A DNA stretch of 34,190 nt from NCBI GenBank assembly GCA_016199925.1, contig JACQFT010000001.1:1-34190 (forward strand). Direction: 5' to 3'. The notes beneath the pieces were generated by a model, which worked only from the letters and a program-made list of their open reading frames with translations, made no database searches and was not told the DNA's origin. Position numbers and translations under genes: made by a program. The DNA comes from Opitutia bacterium. GTDB taxonomy: Bacteria; Verrucomicrobiota; Verrucomicrobiia; Opitutales; Opitutaceae. Positions 28,466-33,631 of the stretch are shown piece after piece (the first letter of the stretch is position 1; each line of letters opens with the position of its first letter).

Positions 28466-30319
28466 ATGCCGGTCGCTCCTGTTGGCTCTTGTCCTGACGC
28501 CGCGTCGAAGCTCCCGCCCGATGCCACAGCGCGCGAAGCCGACTGGCTGGCGCGCGTTTACCGGCCGCACGAGACCAACCTGACGGTCCGCGCCGTCGTC
28601 GTCGGCATGGCCATCGGGGCGGCGATGTGCCTCTCGAATCTCTATGTGTTTTTCAAAACCGGGTGGAGCATGGGCGTGACGCTCACGGCCTGCCTCCTCG
28701 CCTTCGGATCTTTCCAGCTCCTCCAGGCGTTGCGGCTCGTCAAGCGGCCCCTCGGCGCGCTCGAGAACAACGCGCTCAGCACCGTCGCCTCCGGCGCGGG
28801 CTACATGACGGGGGGCGGCAACATGGCGGCGTTCGGCGCGCTCCTCATGCTCACCGCGGTGCGCCCCGACCCGGTCGCCATGATTGCGTGGTTCGGCGTG
28901 ATCGCCGCGCTCGGCGTCTTCGTCGCCATCCCGATCAAGCGCCAGCTTATCAACCACGAAGGGCTCGCGTTTCCCACGGGCACGGCGACGGCGGAGACGA
29001 TCGCGTCCATCCACTCCGCGGCGGCCGGAGGCGGCGGCGGCAAAGCCGCGTGGTTGGCCGGCGCCGGCGCCGCGGCCGCCGCGCTGACTTGGATGCGCGA
29101 CGCGTGGCACTGGATTCCGTCCACGTTCGGTCTGCCGCTGACGCTCGCCGGCCGCCCGTTGGCGGAGTGGACGCTTTCGTTCAAGGCCGAGGTCGTGCTC
29201 ATCGGCGGCGGCGCGCTGATGAGTTTTCGCACCGGCTGGTCGCTGCTGCTCGGCGGCTTGCTCACCTACGGCGTGCTCGGGCCCGCGCTCCTCGCCCACG
29301 GCATCATCACCACCGTCAGCTACAAGGCCATCGTCGCGTGGACGCTGTGGCCCGGCGCCGCGATTCTCGTCGCCTCCGGCCTCACGTCCTTCGCGCTGGA
29401 TTACCGGAGCATCGCGCGCACGTTCACCGGACTGGCCCGGATTTTTCGGCGGCAATCCGCCGCGGCCGCCGACACCGGCCTCGCAGCCGTGGAGTGCCCC
29501 GAGTGGTGGTTTCCCGTCGGGTTCGTCGTCCTCGCGCCCGTCGTCACCGGCCTGATGGTCTGGCTTTTCCAGATTCCGCTGTGGGCCGGGCTCATCGCCG
29601 TGCCGCTGGCCGTCGCGATGGGATTCGTCGCCGCCCGCGTCACGGGCGAGACCGATGTCACGCCGACCAAGGCCCTCGGGCCCGTCACCCAGATGATCTT
29701 CGGCGTCATCACGCCCGGCAATCTCTCCGGCAATATCATGTCGGCCAACGTCACGGGCGGCATCGGGCTGCACGCCGCGGACCTGCTCACCACGCTCAAG
29801 ACGGGGTGGCTGCTCGGCGCCAAACCGCGGCACCAGTTCTACGCCCAGCTCTTCGGCGTCCTCGTCGGCGCCGCCATCGTCGTGCCTGCGTTCAATCTCA
29901 TCATCCCCGATCCGGGCGTGCTCGGCGGCGAAGCCTGGCCGGCGCCCTCGTGCGTCGTCTGGGCCGGAGTTTCCAAGTCCTTTTCCGGCGGCATCGGCGA
30001 GCTGCACGCCTCCTCCAAGTCCGCCATCCTCGTCGGCCTCGCCCTCGGCGTCGCGCTGGCGTTGTTCGAGAAATTCGCGCCCAAGACCCTCCGCCCGCTC
30101 CTGCCCTCGCCGGCGGGGCTGGGCATCGCGATGGTGCTGCCCGGCAGCAATTGCATCGCCATGTTCGCCGGCGCGTCGGCCGCGGAGTTTATGCGCCGGC
30201 GCTTCCCCGTGCTCGCCGAGAAGACCGTGGTGCCCGTCGCCTCGGGCCTGATCGCCGGCGAAAGCCTGATGGGCATCCTCATCGCCGTCCTCGTCGTCAC
30301 GGGACTCCTCGCCCGGTGA
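28466..30319 (+). CDS. OPT-family oligopeptide/metal-chelate transporter
   Basis: A 617-residue membrane protein with about 14-16 hydrophobic helices. Hallmarks of the OPT family are the N-terminal TNLTVRAVVVGMAIGAAMC, NNALSTVASGAGYMTGG, INHEGLAFPTGTATAETI, and RVTGETDVTPTKALGPVTQM, where GETD.TP is a characteristic motif of bacterial members, followed by PGNLSGNIMSANVTGGIG. Bacterial OPT proteins import oligopeptides or siderophore-like chelates with protons; specificity is unknown here. ATG 28466 was chosen because the preceding in-frame sequence is the translated end of the PEP-CTERM gene and non-coding DNA. The gene ends the conserved chromosomal block; the accessory region with repeats begins right after its stop. 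Confidence 0.92.
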   Translation: MPVAPVGSCPDAASKLPPDATAREADWLARVYRPHETNLTVRAVVVGMAIGAAMCLSNLYVFFKTGWSMGVTLTACLLAFGSFQLLQALRLVKRPLGALENNALSTVASGAGYMTGGGNMAAFGALLMLTAVRPDPVAMIAWFGVIAALGVFVAIPIKRQLINHEGLAFPTGTATAETIASIHSAAAGGGGGKAAWLAGAGAAAAALTWMRDAWHWIPSTFGLPLTLAGRPLAEWTLSFKAEVVLIGGGALMSFRTGWSLLLGGLLTYGVLGPALLAHGIITTVSYKAIVAWTLWPGAAILVASGLTSFALDYRSIARTFTGLARIFRRQSAAAADTGLAAVECPEWWFPVGFVVLAPVVTGLMVWLFQIPLWAGLIAVPLAVAMGFVAARVTGETDVTPTKALGPVTQMIFGVITPGNLSGNIMSANVTGGIGLHAADLLTTLKTGWLLGAKPRHQFYAQLFGVLVGAAIVVPAFNLIIPDPGVLGGEAWPAPSCVVWAGVSKSFSGGIGELHASSKSAILVGLALGVALALFEKFAPKTLRPLLPSPAGLGIAMVLPGSNCIAMFAGASAAEFMRRRFPVLAEKTVVPVASGLIAGESLMGILIAVLVVTGLLAR

Positions 30320-30377
30320 CGCCCGGGGCGTAGCCGGAGCCGGCGCCCGGCCCGGGCCGAGGCCGCGGGCCGGACGC

Positions 30378-30641
30378 GCGAAGGCGCGAGCCGATTGGCG
30401 AAGGCGAGTGGCGAGAGGCGAAGGCGTGAGGCGAGTGGCGAAGGCGTGAGGCGAGTGGCGAAGGCGCGAGGCGAGTGGCGAAGGCGCGAGGCCGAAGGCG
30501 AAGGCGCGAGGCGAGTGGCGAAGGCGCGAGGCCGACCGCGAAGCGCCGAAGCGAGCCGGGCGAAGGACCGAAGCGAGTGGGACGACGGACCAAAGCGAGC
30601 CGGTAAAGGGCCGAAGCGAGCCGAGCGAAGGACCGAAGCGG
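30378..30641 (+). repeat. 20-bp tandem repeat with degenerate tail
   Basis: Eight units of 20 bases run from 30378 to 30537, consensus GCGAAGGCGCGAGGCGAGTG. Some units have T for C at position 10, and some end in GGCCGA instead of GGCGAG. From 30538 the array decays into 21-23-base units around GGACCGAAGCGAGCC, up to about 30641. The 20-base period is not a multiple of three, so all frames stay open by composition; the open frames here should not be read as proteins. Confidence 0.9.
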
Positions 30642-30730: not shown

Positions 30731-30800
30731 TTGTCACGTAATACGTGACAAGTTTCGCCCGGGGACTTTCAGAGGGGTTTGTCACGTATTACGTGACAAA
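30731..30800 (+). repeat. 70-bp direct repeat with two palindromes, left copy
   Basis: It contains TTGTCACGTA-A-TACGTGACAA (30731-30751, 10-bp perfect arms), a 26-base linker with GGGGACTTTCAGAGGGG, and TTTGTCACGTA-T-TACGTGACAAA (30778-30800, 11-bp perfect arms). The right copy at 31253-31322 is identical except for two substitutions in the linker. Together they bracket the helix-turn-helix gene. Confidence 0.95.
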
Positions 30801-30806
30801 GCTCGG

Positions 30807-31160
30807 TCAACTTAGCGGCCGACCGCGGCGCTTGGCGCTGACCCACGCGAGGAGCATGAGCGTGCGCTCACCGTCGGGCACGGCGCTTTGGGCTTTCAGG
30901 AATTCGTGCACGCGTTGGCGCGGCAAGCCGAGGTAGCGGCCGAGATTCACCTTCTCGCCGCGCTTGCGGATCAGGTAACGCGCCTCGGCGGCGAGTTCGT
31001 TCCAGAGCGGCGTGCCTGCGCCGGGCCGCACGGTGCTGCCGCGACGCACGCGGCGTGATTGACGGTAATGGTGGACGGCGAGCTTGGCCGTGGCTTCAGC
31101 GACGGACGACAGGCCTTCGCCCATGTCGAGGAGCATGCGCAGACGAGGATTGGTTTGCAT
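30807..31160 (-). CDS. Small helix-turn-helix protein inside the palindrome-flanked unit
   Basis: A 117-residue basic protein (MQTNPRLRMLLDMGEGLSSV...). The N-terminal half has two helices (SVAEATAKLAVHHYRQSRRV). The C-terminal half, GEKVNLGRYLGLPRQRVHEFLKAQ, looks like a helix-turn-helix (about residues 70-95), with a following helix ERTLMLLAWVSAKRRGR. It is very Arg-rich, consistent with DNA binding. No named family is recognised. The frame is open upstream to 31237 (MVAFCGLRRG) and through the right-hand palindrome; I prefer ATG 31160 because the upstream DNA is AT-richer and promoter-like. The stop is 7 bases from the left 70-bp repeat. The palindromes on both sides are candidate binding sites for this protein. 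Confidence 0.6.
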   Translation of the reverse strand: MQTNPRLRMLLDMGEGLSSVAEATAKLAVHHYRQSRRVRRGSTVRPGAGTPLWNELAAEARYLIRKRGEKVNLGRYLGLPRQRVHEFLKAQSAVPDGERTLMLLAWVSAKRRGRPLS

Positions 31161-31252
31161 GAGAGCAATCGGTTGGCGGCCCGTGACGCCGAACAAAACA
31201 ATTTCCGCTCCCCGCCTCAACCCGCAAAACGCGACCATCGTCGTCGGATGAC

Positions 31253-31322
31253 TTGTCACGTAATACGTGACAAGTATCACCCGGGGACTTTCAGAGGGGT
31301 TTGTCACGTATTACGTGACAAA
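31253..31322 (+). repeat. 70-bp direct repeat with two palindromes, right copy
   Basis: It contains ACTTGTCACGTA-A-TACGTGACAAGT (arms extend to 12 bp, 31251-31275) and TTTGTCACGTA-T-TACGTGACAAA (31300-31322). Only two of 70 positions differ from the left copy. For the minus-strand gene this copy lies upstream, where a promoter or operator would be expected. Confidence 0.95.
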
Positions 31323-31462: not shown

Positions 31463-31512
31463 CGAGCTCGCCCGACAGAATCCACAGCCGGAGCCGGTCT
31501 CCGCGCGGAGGT

Positions 31513-31684
31513 GCGGGCTGGCCGCGTCGTAGCTCAAAGGGCGAGGACGGGAGTCGGGGCGCGGTGGCAATTCTCGCAGGTCGGTCGGAGCTCGAGCATG
31601 CCGCCCCTTGACGCCACGCGCCGCGCCCCCGAGCCGATTTCCGATCAGACAATCACAGTGAGCTACGCGACGAGGCGGTGCAGG
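31513..31684 (-). repeat. Repeat containing a DUF1272-like gene start, copy 1
   Basis: On the minus strand the unit runs from CCTGCACCGCC to AGCTACGACGCGGCCAGCCC. Inside, 31599-31534 reads MLELRPTCENCHRAPTPVLA and one more residue before a TGA. MLELRPTCENC is the N-terminus of DUF1272 zinc-binding proteins, but the remaining cysteines and Trp/Pro-rich core are absent. The ends GTAGCTCA and TGAGCTAC are inverted, so the unit can fold back on itself. Copy 2 is at 32327-32529. Confidence 0.75.
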
Positions 31685-31749: not shown

Positions 31750-32055
31750 TCAATCTCCCGTGCGCTCCCGCCCGGATTCAGGATGGCGGGCGCCGTGCAG
31801 GATGCTGAGAAATTGCACGGTGTCGCCGCGGGAGGAAATCCGGTAGCGGATGACGTAGGGGAAGCGCTCCACGAGAAATCGCCGGACGCCACCGTGGCGC
31901 GCTGGCCAGCGTTCGGGCGCGAGCATCACGGTTTCGACGGCTTTCTCCGCCTCGTCCAGAAATTCAGCACCCAAGGCCGGCCGCTGCTTTTGGTAGTAGC
32001 GTGCGGCCTCGATCAGGTCCGTTTCAAAGCCTGGATGAAACCACCGGTGCATCAA
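31750..32055 (-). CDS. ParE/RelE-family toxin of a type II toxin-antitoxin pair
   Basis: A 101-residue protein. FETDLIEAARYYQKQRPALGAEFL is the helical hairpin of the ParE/RelE fold, followed by PERWPARHGGVRRFLVERFPYVIRYRI, the strand region with the family's conserved Arg and FPY, then SILHGARHPE near the C-terminus (the usual V.H..R.P pattern). ParE types poison gyrase and RelE types cut mRNA on the ribosome; HGARHP and the FPYVIRY pattern favour a ParE/Rel-like member without deciding. It overlaps the antitoxin gene by 4 bases (ATGA), so translation is coupled. Toxin and antitoxin sit between two copies of the DUF1272-fragment repeat. Confidence 0.88.
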   Translation of the reverse strand: MMHRWFHPGFETDLIEAARYYQKQRPALGAEFLDEAEKAVETVMLAPERWPARHGGVRRFLVERFPYVIRYRISSRGDTVQFLSILHGARHPESGRERTGD

Positions 32056-32267
32056 AGCGCGGCCCGCGCGTTCTTGAAAACTTCTCCTTGGGTCTTGGGT
32101 TGGACTTGGCCGGTCTCGAGCTCGTGCGAACGGGAGAGGGCGGCGAGGTCCGCGAGGGCGTCATCGGAAGCGCCAAAGCTTCTCCAGATGGCGGTGGCGA
32201 CGCGCAGCCGGTCGCGCTCCGGCAGCTTCAACGCCGCCTCGGTGATCTGCTGCGTGTTGGCTGTCAT
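32052..32267 (-). CDS. Antitoxin, putative addiction module component (Unstab_antitox type)
   Basis: A 71-residue protein. ITEAALKLPERDRLRVATAIWRSF matches the short helical addiction-module component family, in which a conserved LP..ER..LA..L helix precedes a flexible C-terminus that wraps the toxin. It is encoded first in the operon, with the toxin start overlapping by 4 bases, the standard order. No separate DNA-binding domain is seen, typical of this family. ATG 32267 is the only reasonable start. Autoregulation cannot be shown from sequence. Confidence 0.85.
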   Translation of the reverse strand: MTANTQQITEAALKLPERDRLRVATAIWRSFGASDDALADLAALSRSHELETGQVQPKTQGEVFKNARAAL

Positions 32268-32326
32268 GCCGCTACCATCGCCCGAAGTTTCGCTCAGTCA
32301 ATTCGGTTTCCGGCTAAGACAGCGGG

Positions 32327-32529
32327 GCGGGCTTGCCGCGTCGTAGCTCAACGCGCGACTTGCCGCGCCGAAGTCGGAGTGCGGAGGCGGGAAACGGGAG
32401 AGGCGCGGTTGCAATTCTCGCAAGTCAGTCGGAGTTCGAGCATGCCGACCTTTTACGCCGCGAGCCGCGCCCCGCGAGCCAAGTTCCGGCCGGAAAATCA
32501 CAGTGCGCTACGCGGCGGGGCGGTGCAGG
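32327..32529 (-). repeat. Repeat containing a DUF1272-like gene start, copy 2
   Basis: Longer relative of the 31513-31684 unit, with the extra ~30 bases in the tail. On the minus strand 32443-32348 reads MLELRLTCENCNRASPVSRL and eleven more residues before TGA at the same conserved GAGCTACGACGCGGC end. Both copies keep the ATG, the CENC motif and the stop-end sequence, while the middle differs. It lies upstream of the toxin-antitoxin operon. Confidence 0.75.
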
Positions 32530-32638: not shown

Positions 32639-33631
32639 ATGAACTCTGACGAGCGGTTTTTCTATCACAGTTTTCCTCGCCGTGGTCGCGACACGATTGG
32701 CGAGGTCACCAAGGGATGTGAAATTCTTGCGCTTATTCGAGATGCCGGGCTCCTTCTAGCTCCAGAGATTGTGGAGTGGAGATATTCACATGCTAATGGG
32801 TCTCCGCCACGAGTGGAGCGATTCCTTCAGAATCGAGTGTGCTTTACGGAGCTGTCGCCCAGTGAGCTTGCACGACACGCAAGTGAATTTGGTCATTTCG
32901 CGTTGGAGTTCCGAATAGAGACAATACGGAAGTTGGGAGGAATGCCTGTCTTCTACGTTCCTAATCCCAAGGAAGCAAATGACAGCACGCCGGAGCAATT
33001 GGGTTCGACGCTTGTAATTCAGCTCATGGATGCCAGGAATTTGGCCAATCATATCGCTGGGCTTTCAGAAGTGTTCAGGGGACCGGTTCCGGTGGAGCGA
33101 GAAATTGATTTCTGTGTAGAGTTCAAAGAAAATCCAAATGCCACAAAGAGTTTCCGATTGGTTACGGATGAAGCGAAGAAAACGCTAGAAGCCATTACAC
33201 ATGGAGTGACTCCAGCGCGGATGCTCGCAGACGGAATTACTGGAACGCTAAATTTATTTTATCCAACCGATGGCCATACCGAAAATTCGACGATGGTAAA
33301 TTATCGGCAGCGAGAATGGCGGATAATTGGGAATGTCTCGGTAAAAGGCGTCAGCCTTATGAAAAGGCTTAACCCAGAAGAGAGGGATCAATTGCAGCGG
33401 ATAGACGCAGAATTTTTTGGCAGAGTATTGGAGTGTCCGCTGGGTGATGTCCCTCTGCTGGACGCATGCCTAATGTATCCGAAGTTGAATGGAGAACCTA
33501 TTATTGAATTAGTGAATCGCGTTATCGTTCCAGACTCCGCAGTTGCGAAAGCGAAGAATGTCTTGTCAGGGCTTCGCCGCCCGCCGATGGTTGTATCACT
33601 GACGGAAATAGCAGAATCTCCCGGCGCTTAG
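32639..33631 (+). CDS. AbiGi-family (abortive infection) protein
   Basis: A 330-residue soluble protein. The N-terminal ~115 residues resemble the AbiGi family, named for the abortive phage resistance antitoxin: FYHSF near the start, VCFTELSPSELARHASEFGHFALEF in the middle, then GGMPVFYVPN. The rest (~120-330) is unassigned, with a basic stretch and a VNYRQREWRIIGN segment typical of this extended form. The gene is AT-richer than everything around it, with many ATT, AAT and GAA codons, a sign of recent transfer. It is a single gene here: no AbiGii-type toxin is next to it. A possible LexA box lies upstream. Its stop is only 12 bases from the 3' end of metH. Confidence 0.7.
   Translation: MNSDERFFYHSFPRRGRDTIGEVTKGCEILALIRDAGLLLAPEIVEWRYSHANGSPPRVERFLQNRVCFTELSPSELARHASEFGHFALEFRIETIRKLGGMPVFYVPNPKEANDSTPEQLGSTLVIQLMDARNLANHIAGLSEVFRGPVPVEREIDFCVEFKENPNATKSFRLVTDEAKKTLEAITHGVTPARMLADGITGTLNLFYPTDGHTENSTMVNYRQREWRIIGNVSVKGVSLMKRLNPEERDQLQRIDAEFFGRVLECPLGDVPLLDACLMYPKLNGEPIIELVNRVIVPDSAVAKAKNVLSGLRRPPMVVSLTEIAESPGA

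Follow-up and report, generated by a model that had tools for sequence, protein, structure and literature searches.

A small helix-turn-helix (HTH) gene and the palindromes that bracket it in the window, the whole 34,190-nucleotide stretch of DNA that was analysed, probably represent a two-part system of repeats and a binding protein, in which layout and dynamics resemble those of REPIN/RAYT systems and a repressor-type protein replaces the transposase. The co-occurrence of gene and palindromes, the bracketing of the gene, residue-to-base covariation and lineage-specific expansion of the repeats are all supported by computation. The window locus appears to be one case of a widespread arrangement.

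The HTH gene is located on the minus strand at 30807..31160 and encodes an XRE/Cro-like protein, as judged by homologue alignment, weak HTH_3/YdaS matches, an AlphaFold model and a fold search. Its reading frame is open up to 31307, and the ATG at 31160 was chosen as the start because the homologue alignment points there, which supports a predicted product of 117 aa. Directly after the stop codon lies copy 1 of a 70-bp palindrome-pair unit (30731..30800, plus strand; repeat comparison and hairpin fold), and copy 2 lies ~90 bp upstream of the start codon (31253..31322, plus strand; repeat comparison). Each unit contains two palindromes 48 bp apart, which were placed by exact matching at 30732..30750 and 30780..30798 in copy 1 and at 31254..31272 and 31302..31320 in copy 2. 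The initial annotation had described four palindromes arranged as two pairs within 70-bp direct repeats, and our results agreed with it: TGTCACGTA-W-TACGTGACA has four exact matches in the window, as opposed to 0.01 in shuffled sequence at the tolerance used, and the direct copies contain two mismatches and are separated by 452 bp, with similarity reaching ~75 bp at 95%. The order of the palindrome centres, A and then T, is common but not fixed, with the A/T centre varying among genomic copies. When folded as a single strand, the window unit forms one 25-bp hairpin (-24 kcal/mol, z = -8.8 versus shuffles). No known RNA family was matched, and no T-tract terminator was found in the terminator scan.

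Several other features were observed around the locus. An imperfect tandem array of ~20-bp units (GGCGAAGGCGCGAGGCGAGT-like) occupies 30358-30640, right after a large membrane-transporter-like gene ending at 30319. A ParE-type toxin (31750-32055, minus strand; Pfam E 2e-11) is accompanied by a small putative antitoxin (32052-32267), and this module (31750-32267, minus strand) lies between direct repeats (31510-31629 and 32324-32473; 88-89% identical), possibly constituting a mobile or duplicated toxin-antitoxin cassette. Beside the module is a gene for a 330-aa protein (32639-33631, plus strand) with similarity to the AbiGi abortive-infection antitoxin (Pfam E 1e-5, PADLOC E 0.001).

The host genome encodes five HTH homologues, the other four being 42-51% identical. 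A profile search detected homologues in 130 of 252 genomes assigned by record title to Opitutaceae, a family found in soil and freshwater, with up to 8 per genome, and strict peptide patterns matched, among GTDB genomes, only Verrucomicrobiota records, nearly all of them from Opitutae/Opitutaceae as judged by title and one titled Akkermansiaceae. No relative was found among IMG/VR contigs or PLSDB plasmids, and a phage or plasmid origin of the gene is thus unsupported. The conserved domain of the homologues reads 'RPGxxTPLWNxL ... LARxLGLPRQR ... PDAERTLxLLxWL'. Pfam searches with 31 homologues gave only weak matches, to YdaS in 22 and to HTH_3 in 7, and no match to Y1_Tnp, and neither NCBIfam nor defence-system models matched the HTH protein. 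In the AlphaFold model (pLDDT 79.5), the N terminus forms a long helix and the HTH domain is helical, its recognition helix comprising residues 81-89. The nearest PDB folds identified by Foldseek, with modest scores, were the P22 c2 repressor (prob 0.92, E 0.33) and controller proteins. These weak but consistent results suggest a lambda-repressor-like (XRE/Cro-type) fold. No nuclease or transposase motif or fold was found in the protein, and since it has no catalytic domain, movement of the repeats by the protein alone is implausible.

We looked at whether the palindrome is confined to this locus without other gene-flanking cases, which the initial annotation had named as the finding that would speak against a mobile unit, and the opposite was found. 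The host genome assembly (3.79 Mb, 264 contigs) contains 59 palindrome places (two mismatches or fewer), solo copies among them, most of which are exact and most paired 46-48 bp apart. Alignment of 14 unit copies, 2 from the window and 12 from elsewhere, revealed a conserved 27-bp spacer of about AGTTTCRCCCGGGGASTTTCAGAGGGGTT, unit ends that coincide with the palindromes, and unrelated flanks. A generic palindrome-class pattern was then counted in 95 genomes. Counts based on sequence patterns of one palindrome form, in genomes that are mostly draft metagenome assemblies, showed a median of 24 in 27 gene-positive Opitutaceae genomes versus 0 in 34 gene-negative ones (p = 3e-8), confirming the predicted co-occurrence, and the reversed control pattern had no match in Opitutaceae genomes. 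Two genomes contained palindromes with no HTH gene detected at the threshold (G017, 16; G039, 12), and in G021 the main palindrome class is an orphan for which no gene was detected; we tentatively take these palindromes to be relics, or their genes to have been missed.

Other gene-flanking cases were also found. An odd-centred palindrome is present within 250 bp of 114 of 134 distinct homologues, with other palindrome variants, often as pairs on both sides of the gene with a genome-specific spacing of 42-77 bp. The commonest flanking arm is TGTCACGTA (20), followed by TGTAACGTA, TGTCACTTA and TGTCACCTA (12 each), AGTAACCTA (6), TGTCAACTA (5) and rarer arms. The 20 homologues without the searched palindrome form nearby belong mainly to a subfamily with the helix LQDCLKA or LHVCLKA, in which PDAER is changed to LDAER and the standard palindrome is missing (L062, L137, L143, L147, L155, L165, L166, L173, L178 and L188). 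This subfamily may use another site form or may have lost its repeats.

The protein columns that share most mutual information with palindrome positions are profile columns 83-90 and 96, in or just after the recognition helix. In 12 of 12 homologues with K84 the palindrome had A or G as its first base, versus 0 of 102 among the others (R84K: TGTAAC to A/GGTAAC). On a tree inferred after removal of the recognition region, with p values that assume exchangeable branches and are indicative only, R84K and A/G at site 1 arose in seven same-branch changes (p = 2e-13), P84 or another residue at position 84 was associated with a second base other than G (T at site 2 in the case of P84; p = 5e-6), and a non-R residue at position 86 was associated with A at site 6 (p = 2e-7). 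In four homologues (L183, L184, L186 and L187) the recognition helix has diverged (APGRVHEFF, HVSRVTEYF and similar), and the palindromes beside these genes are of quite another kind (TGAACCGTA, AAGTCCGTA, TTTGCCGTA and TCTAGCGTA), which extends the covariation. When dispersed palindrome classes were compared with resident genes in seven genomes, the observed match was reached by 10 of 5040 permutations, or by 26 of 5040 when the fourth gene of G060, a genome with four HTH genes for four main palindrome classes, was left out. The helix-to-base covariation provides strong indirect evidence that the protein would recognise the palindrome directly, and palindrome binding and co-evolution of specificity are strongly supported, as far as sequence comparison can tell. 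This pairing predicts that R84K would move the preference from TGTAACCTA to AGTAACCTA, that homologues of the TGTAACCTA, AGTAACCTA, TTTCACGTA and TGTCAACTA types would each prefer their own palindrome, and that the class pattern RGTAACCYAATRGGTTACY would be confined to genomes that have, or once had, an R84K homologue.

Comparison with a relative of the same genus (G001) revealed turnover of the repeats. The main class in this relative, TGTCATATA-A-TAGATGACA, deviates from a perfect palindrome, yet no class is commoner among the 46 sites, and it is identical to the five copies around the relative's own HTH gene. That an asymmetric variant is identical at the gene and elsewhere argues for copying rather than repeated independent origin. 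Three loci at which G001 carries this young class could be compared, and the host genome lacks it at all 3; an older class is common to both genomes at three other loci. Presence/absence differences between sister species were thus found. At the G001 loci L326-L355, the 4-5 bases outside each palindrome are symmetric within a copy and different between copies (gcaa..ttgc, ggaag..cttcc, gatt..aatc), and in other genomes perfect arms extend up to 24 nt, the outer sequence upstream of the gene being unlike that downstream of it.

Both sister species contain an in-frame palindrome in a NadR-like kinase gene (L019 3048 and L307 1815), which is missing from the 12 other relatives readable at the same position. 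Symmetric changes in both arms distinguish the two versions, in each case towards the class of the genome concerned, and the host palindrome would add the peptide CHVLRDK. Either the palindrome followed the protein change, or this position was hit on two occasions. Of the solo sites compared in a closer pair of genomes (G060/G163), four are conserved intact and a fifth carries different classes, and palindromes are intact where the flanks differ. Homologues with differing palindrome types occupy the interval between an aminotransferase and a dihydrouridine synthase gene in many genera, and this constancy of one chromosomal position argues for long vertical descent with changing specificity. 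Intergenic regions in the species compared are too diverged for target-site duplications to be read. These comparative data support a probable spread of the repeats lineage by lineage.

The placement of the palindromes is REP-like and unlike that of a promoter regulon. Dispersed palindromes were found in 35 convergent, 31 tandem and 3 divergent intergenic regions, versus 19, 60 and 24, respectively, among other nearby intergenic regions (p = 4e-6), with gene contexts taken from a simple home-made codon-usage gene caller. The bias persisted after orthologous and gene-locus sites were dropped (p = 6e-5). In the complete genome G021, palindrome sites are spread evenly over the whole chromosome, and no clustering towards ori or ter was seen there.

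In the system that we propose, a small XRE/Cro-type protein would bind, presumably as a dimer, a 19-bp near-perfect palindrome that usually occurs in pairs 42-77 bp apart, which could fold into one hairpin. Some copies bracket the protein gene; others have reached intergenic positions, for the most part at the downstream ends of genes. The gene and its palindrome would evolve as a pair, the recognition helix changing and the palindromes following, and new-type copies would expand within a lineage while old types persist as relics. The bracketing copies may mediate autoregulation of the HTH gene, and the protein may take part in maintaining or spreading the repeats. Both ideas had been raised in the initial annotation, and both are supported in part. 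The presumed binding protein has sites on both sides of its gene, a layout that suggests autoregulation; dispersal, solo copies and sister-species differences agree with a repeat-spreading unit, in whose spread the protein may play a part.

Chance, or local duplication around one gene, has a negligible probability: the shuffle expectation is 0.01 and the arrangement recurs at 114 distinct genes, and the shuffles, the dispersal in the host genome and the 114 flanked homologues together rule it out. The protein could instead be a conventional XRE transcription factor controlling a regulon, its sites selected at target promoters and the bracketing sites serving autoregulation, as its XRE-like fold, the sites adjoining its gene and the conservation of some orthologous sites between species would suggest. 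We give this little credence. The dispersed sites are scarce at divergent promoters and enriched where genes converge, the 27-bp spacer is copied together with the sites, asymmetric variants are faithfully copied, and a genome may hold up to 8 paralogues with different sites. Sites in regulated promoters, expected of an XRE regulator, were not the pattern observed (3 divergent versus 35 convergent), with a role at the gene's own promoter region being possible; a promoter regulon as the sole explanation was rejected on the grounds of placement. The convergent placement, the distribution over the whole G021 chromosome and the palindromes that stay intact between species with differing flanks would all fit a chromosome-organising or transcript-insulating protein, for which the palindromes would be binding stations at gene ends, a role proposed for REP/BIME elements, and spread would be secondary. 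Such a housekeeping role fits poorly with the patchy distribution, the numerous paralogues and the rapid shifts in specificity, and the terminator scan revealed no T-tract terminator; we consider this explanation rather unlikely, albeit one to be kept in mind.

It is quite improbable that the palindromes are ordinary REP/MITE-like elements that owe their movement to a Y1 (RAYT/IS200) transposase from another locus, with the HTH protein as an adapted host binding protein. Y1_Tnp genes are common in Opitutaceae, with 7 matches in the host genome, and the hairpin geometry suits single-strand transposition. However, palindrome number correlated with the number of Y1_Tnp genes at a rho of 0.06, in an analysis that covered the Y1 class (RAYT/IS200), versus 0.69 with the HTH gene; G018 and G024 contain 16 and 46 palindromes, respectively, and no Y1_Tnp match; and no GTAG/CGTC tag adjoins the palindromes. 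RAYT/IS200 elements as the driver were rejected on account of this lack of correlation and of the two palindrome-rich, Y1-free genomes. The HTH protein may recruit, license or protect, or may merely follow repeats spread by another route. A bolder version of the two-part system, which we put forward tentatively and rate as possible, is a chromosomal repeat class that spreads via a non-catalytic repressor-type protein, which would bind hairpin palindromes and recruit, or protect against, host replication/repair enzymes, with specificities co-diversifying into separate repeat populations within a genome.

To our knowledge, all REPIN-like repeat populations described so far depend on a single family of transposases. 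If an unrelated repressor-type protein takes that place in a parallel system, dispersed hairpin repeats and their cognate protein would be able to persist together without a RAYT-family transposase, and the comparison would help to sort essentials, such as binding and gene-end placement, from non-essentials. The more than 100 natural pairs of protein and palindrome, in which changes of helix and site can be traced, would also constitute a test set for repressor-like specificity switching. In the open-access literature, to which the search was confined, we found no account of dispersed palindromes that co-evolve with a repressor-type gene.

Known systems share parts of this arrangement. The XRE/Cro-cI autoregulators (P22 c2, restriction-modification controller proteins and YdaS/Cro) resemble it in the HTH fold, the presumed palindrome-bound dimer and the sites by their own gene, but here sites also lie downstream, form spaced pairs with a conserved spacer and have spread away from divergent promoters. 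Rickettsia palindromic elements occur inside genes (cited in PMC3733652), like the in-frame palindrome within the NadR-like kinase gene, but the present system provides one clear coding case and its sequence is unrelated. GTAG repeats have been reported for Opitutus terrae (PMC3733652), and the GTAG/CGTC-tagged REPs are likewise short palindromic extragenic repeats from the same bacterial family (PMC3733652); the repeats described here differ from them in sequence and have neither the tag nor a link to a tyrosine transposase.

The closest likeness is to REPIN/RAYT systems, in which a REPIN is a doublet folding into one hairpin, the defining geometry (PMC3116915). In both systems repeats flank a protein gene (here at 114 of 134 homologues), doublets form one hairpin and are dispersed extragenically, the repeats are amplified and the gene is not, gene-bearing genomes contain more repeats, and the gene can hold one chromosomal site over long times with vertical descent (PMC3116915, PMC8049555). 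The differences are that the protein here is a 117-aa XRE-like DNA-binding protein and not a Y1/HUH tyrosine transposase, that the palindromes are near-perfect, odd-centred and without a GTAG tag (in the 14 aligned unit copies, read by eye, no GTAG/CGTC tetranucleotide lies next to the palindromes), that copy numbers are in the tens rather than the hundreds, and that a genome holds several paralogues with different specificities. The initial annotation had seen a REPIN/RAYT layout without a tyrosine transposase; this layout and its dynamics hold, and the protein is a helical HTH protein with no Y1_Tnp match. A tyrosine transposase and a GTAG/CGTC tag both belong to the definition of REPIN/RAYT, and the system has neither; it works like, but is not, REPIN/RAYT.
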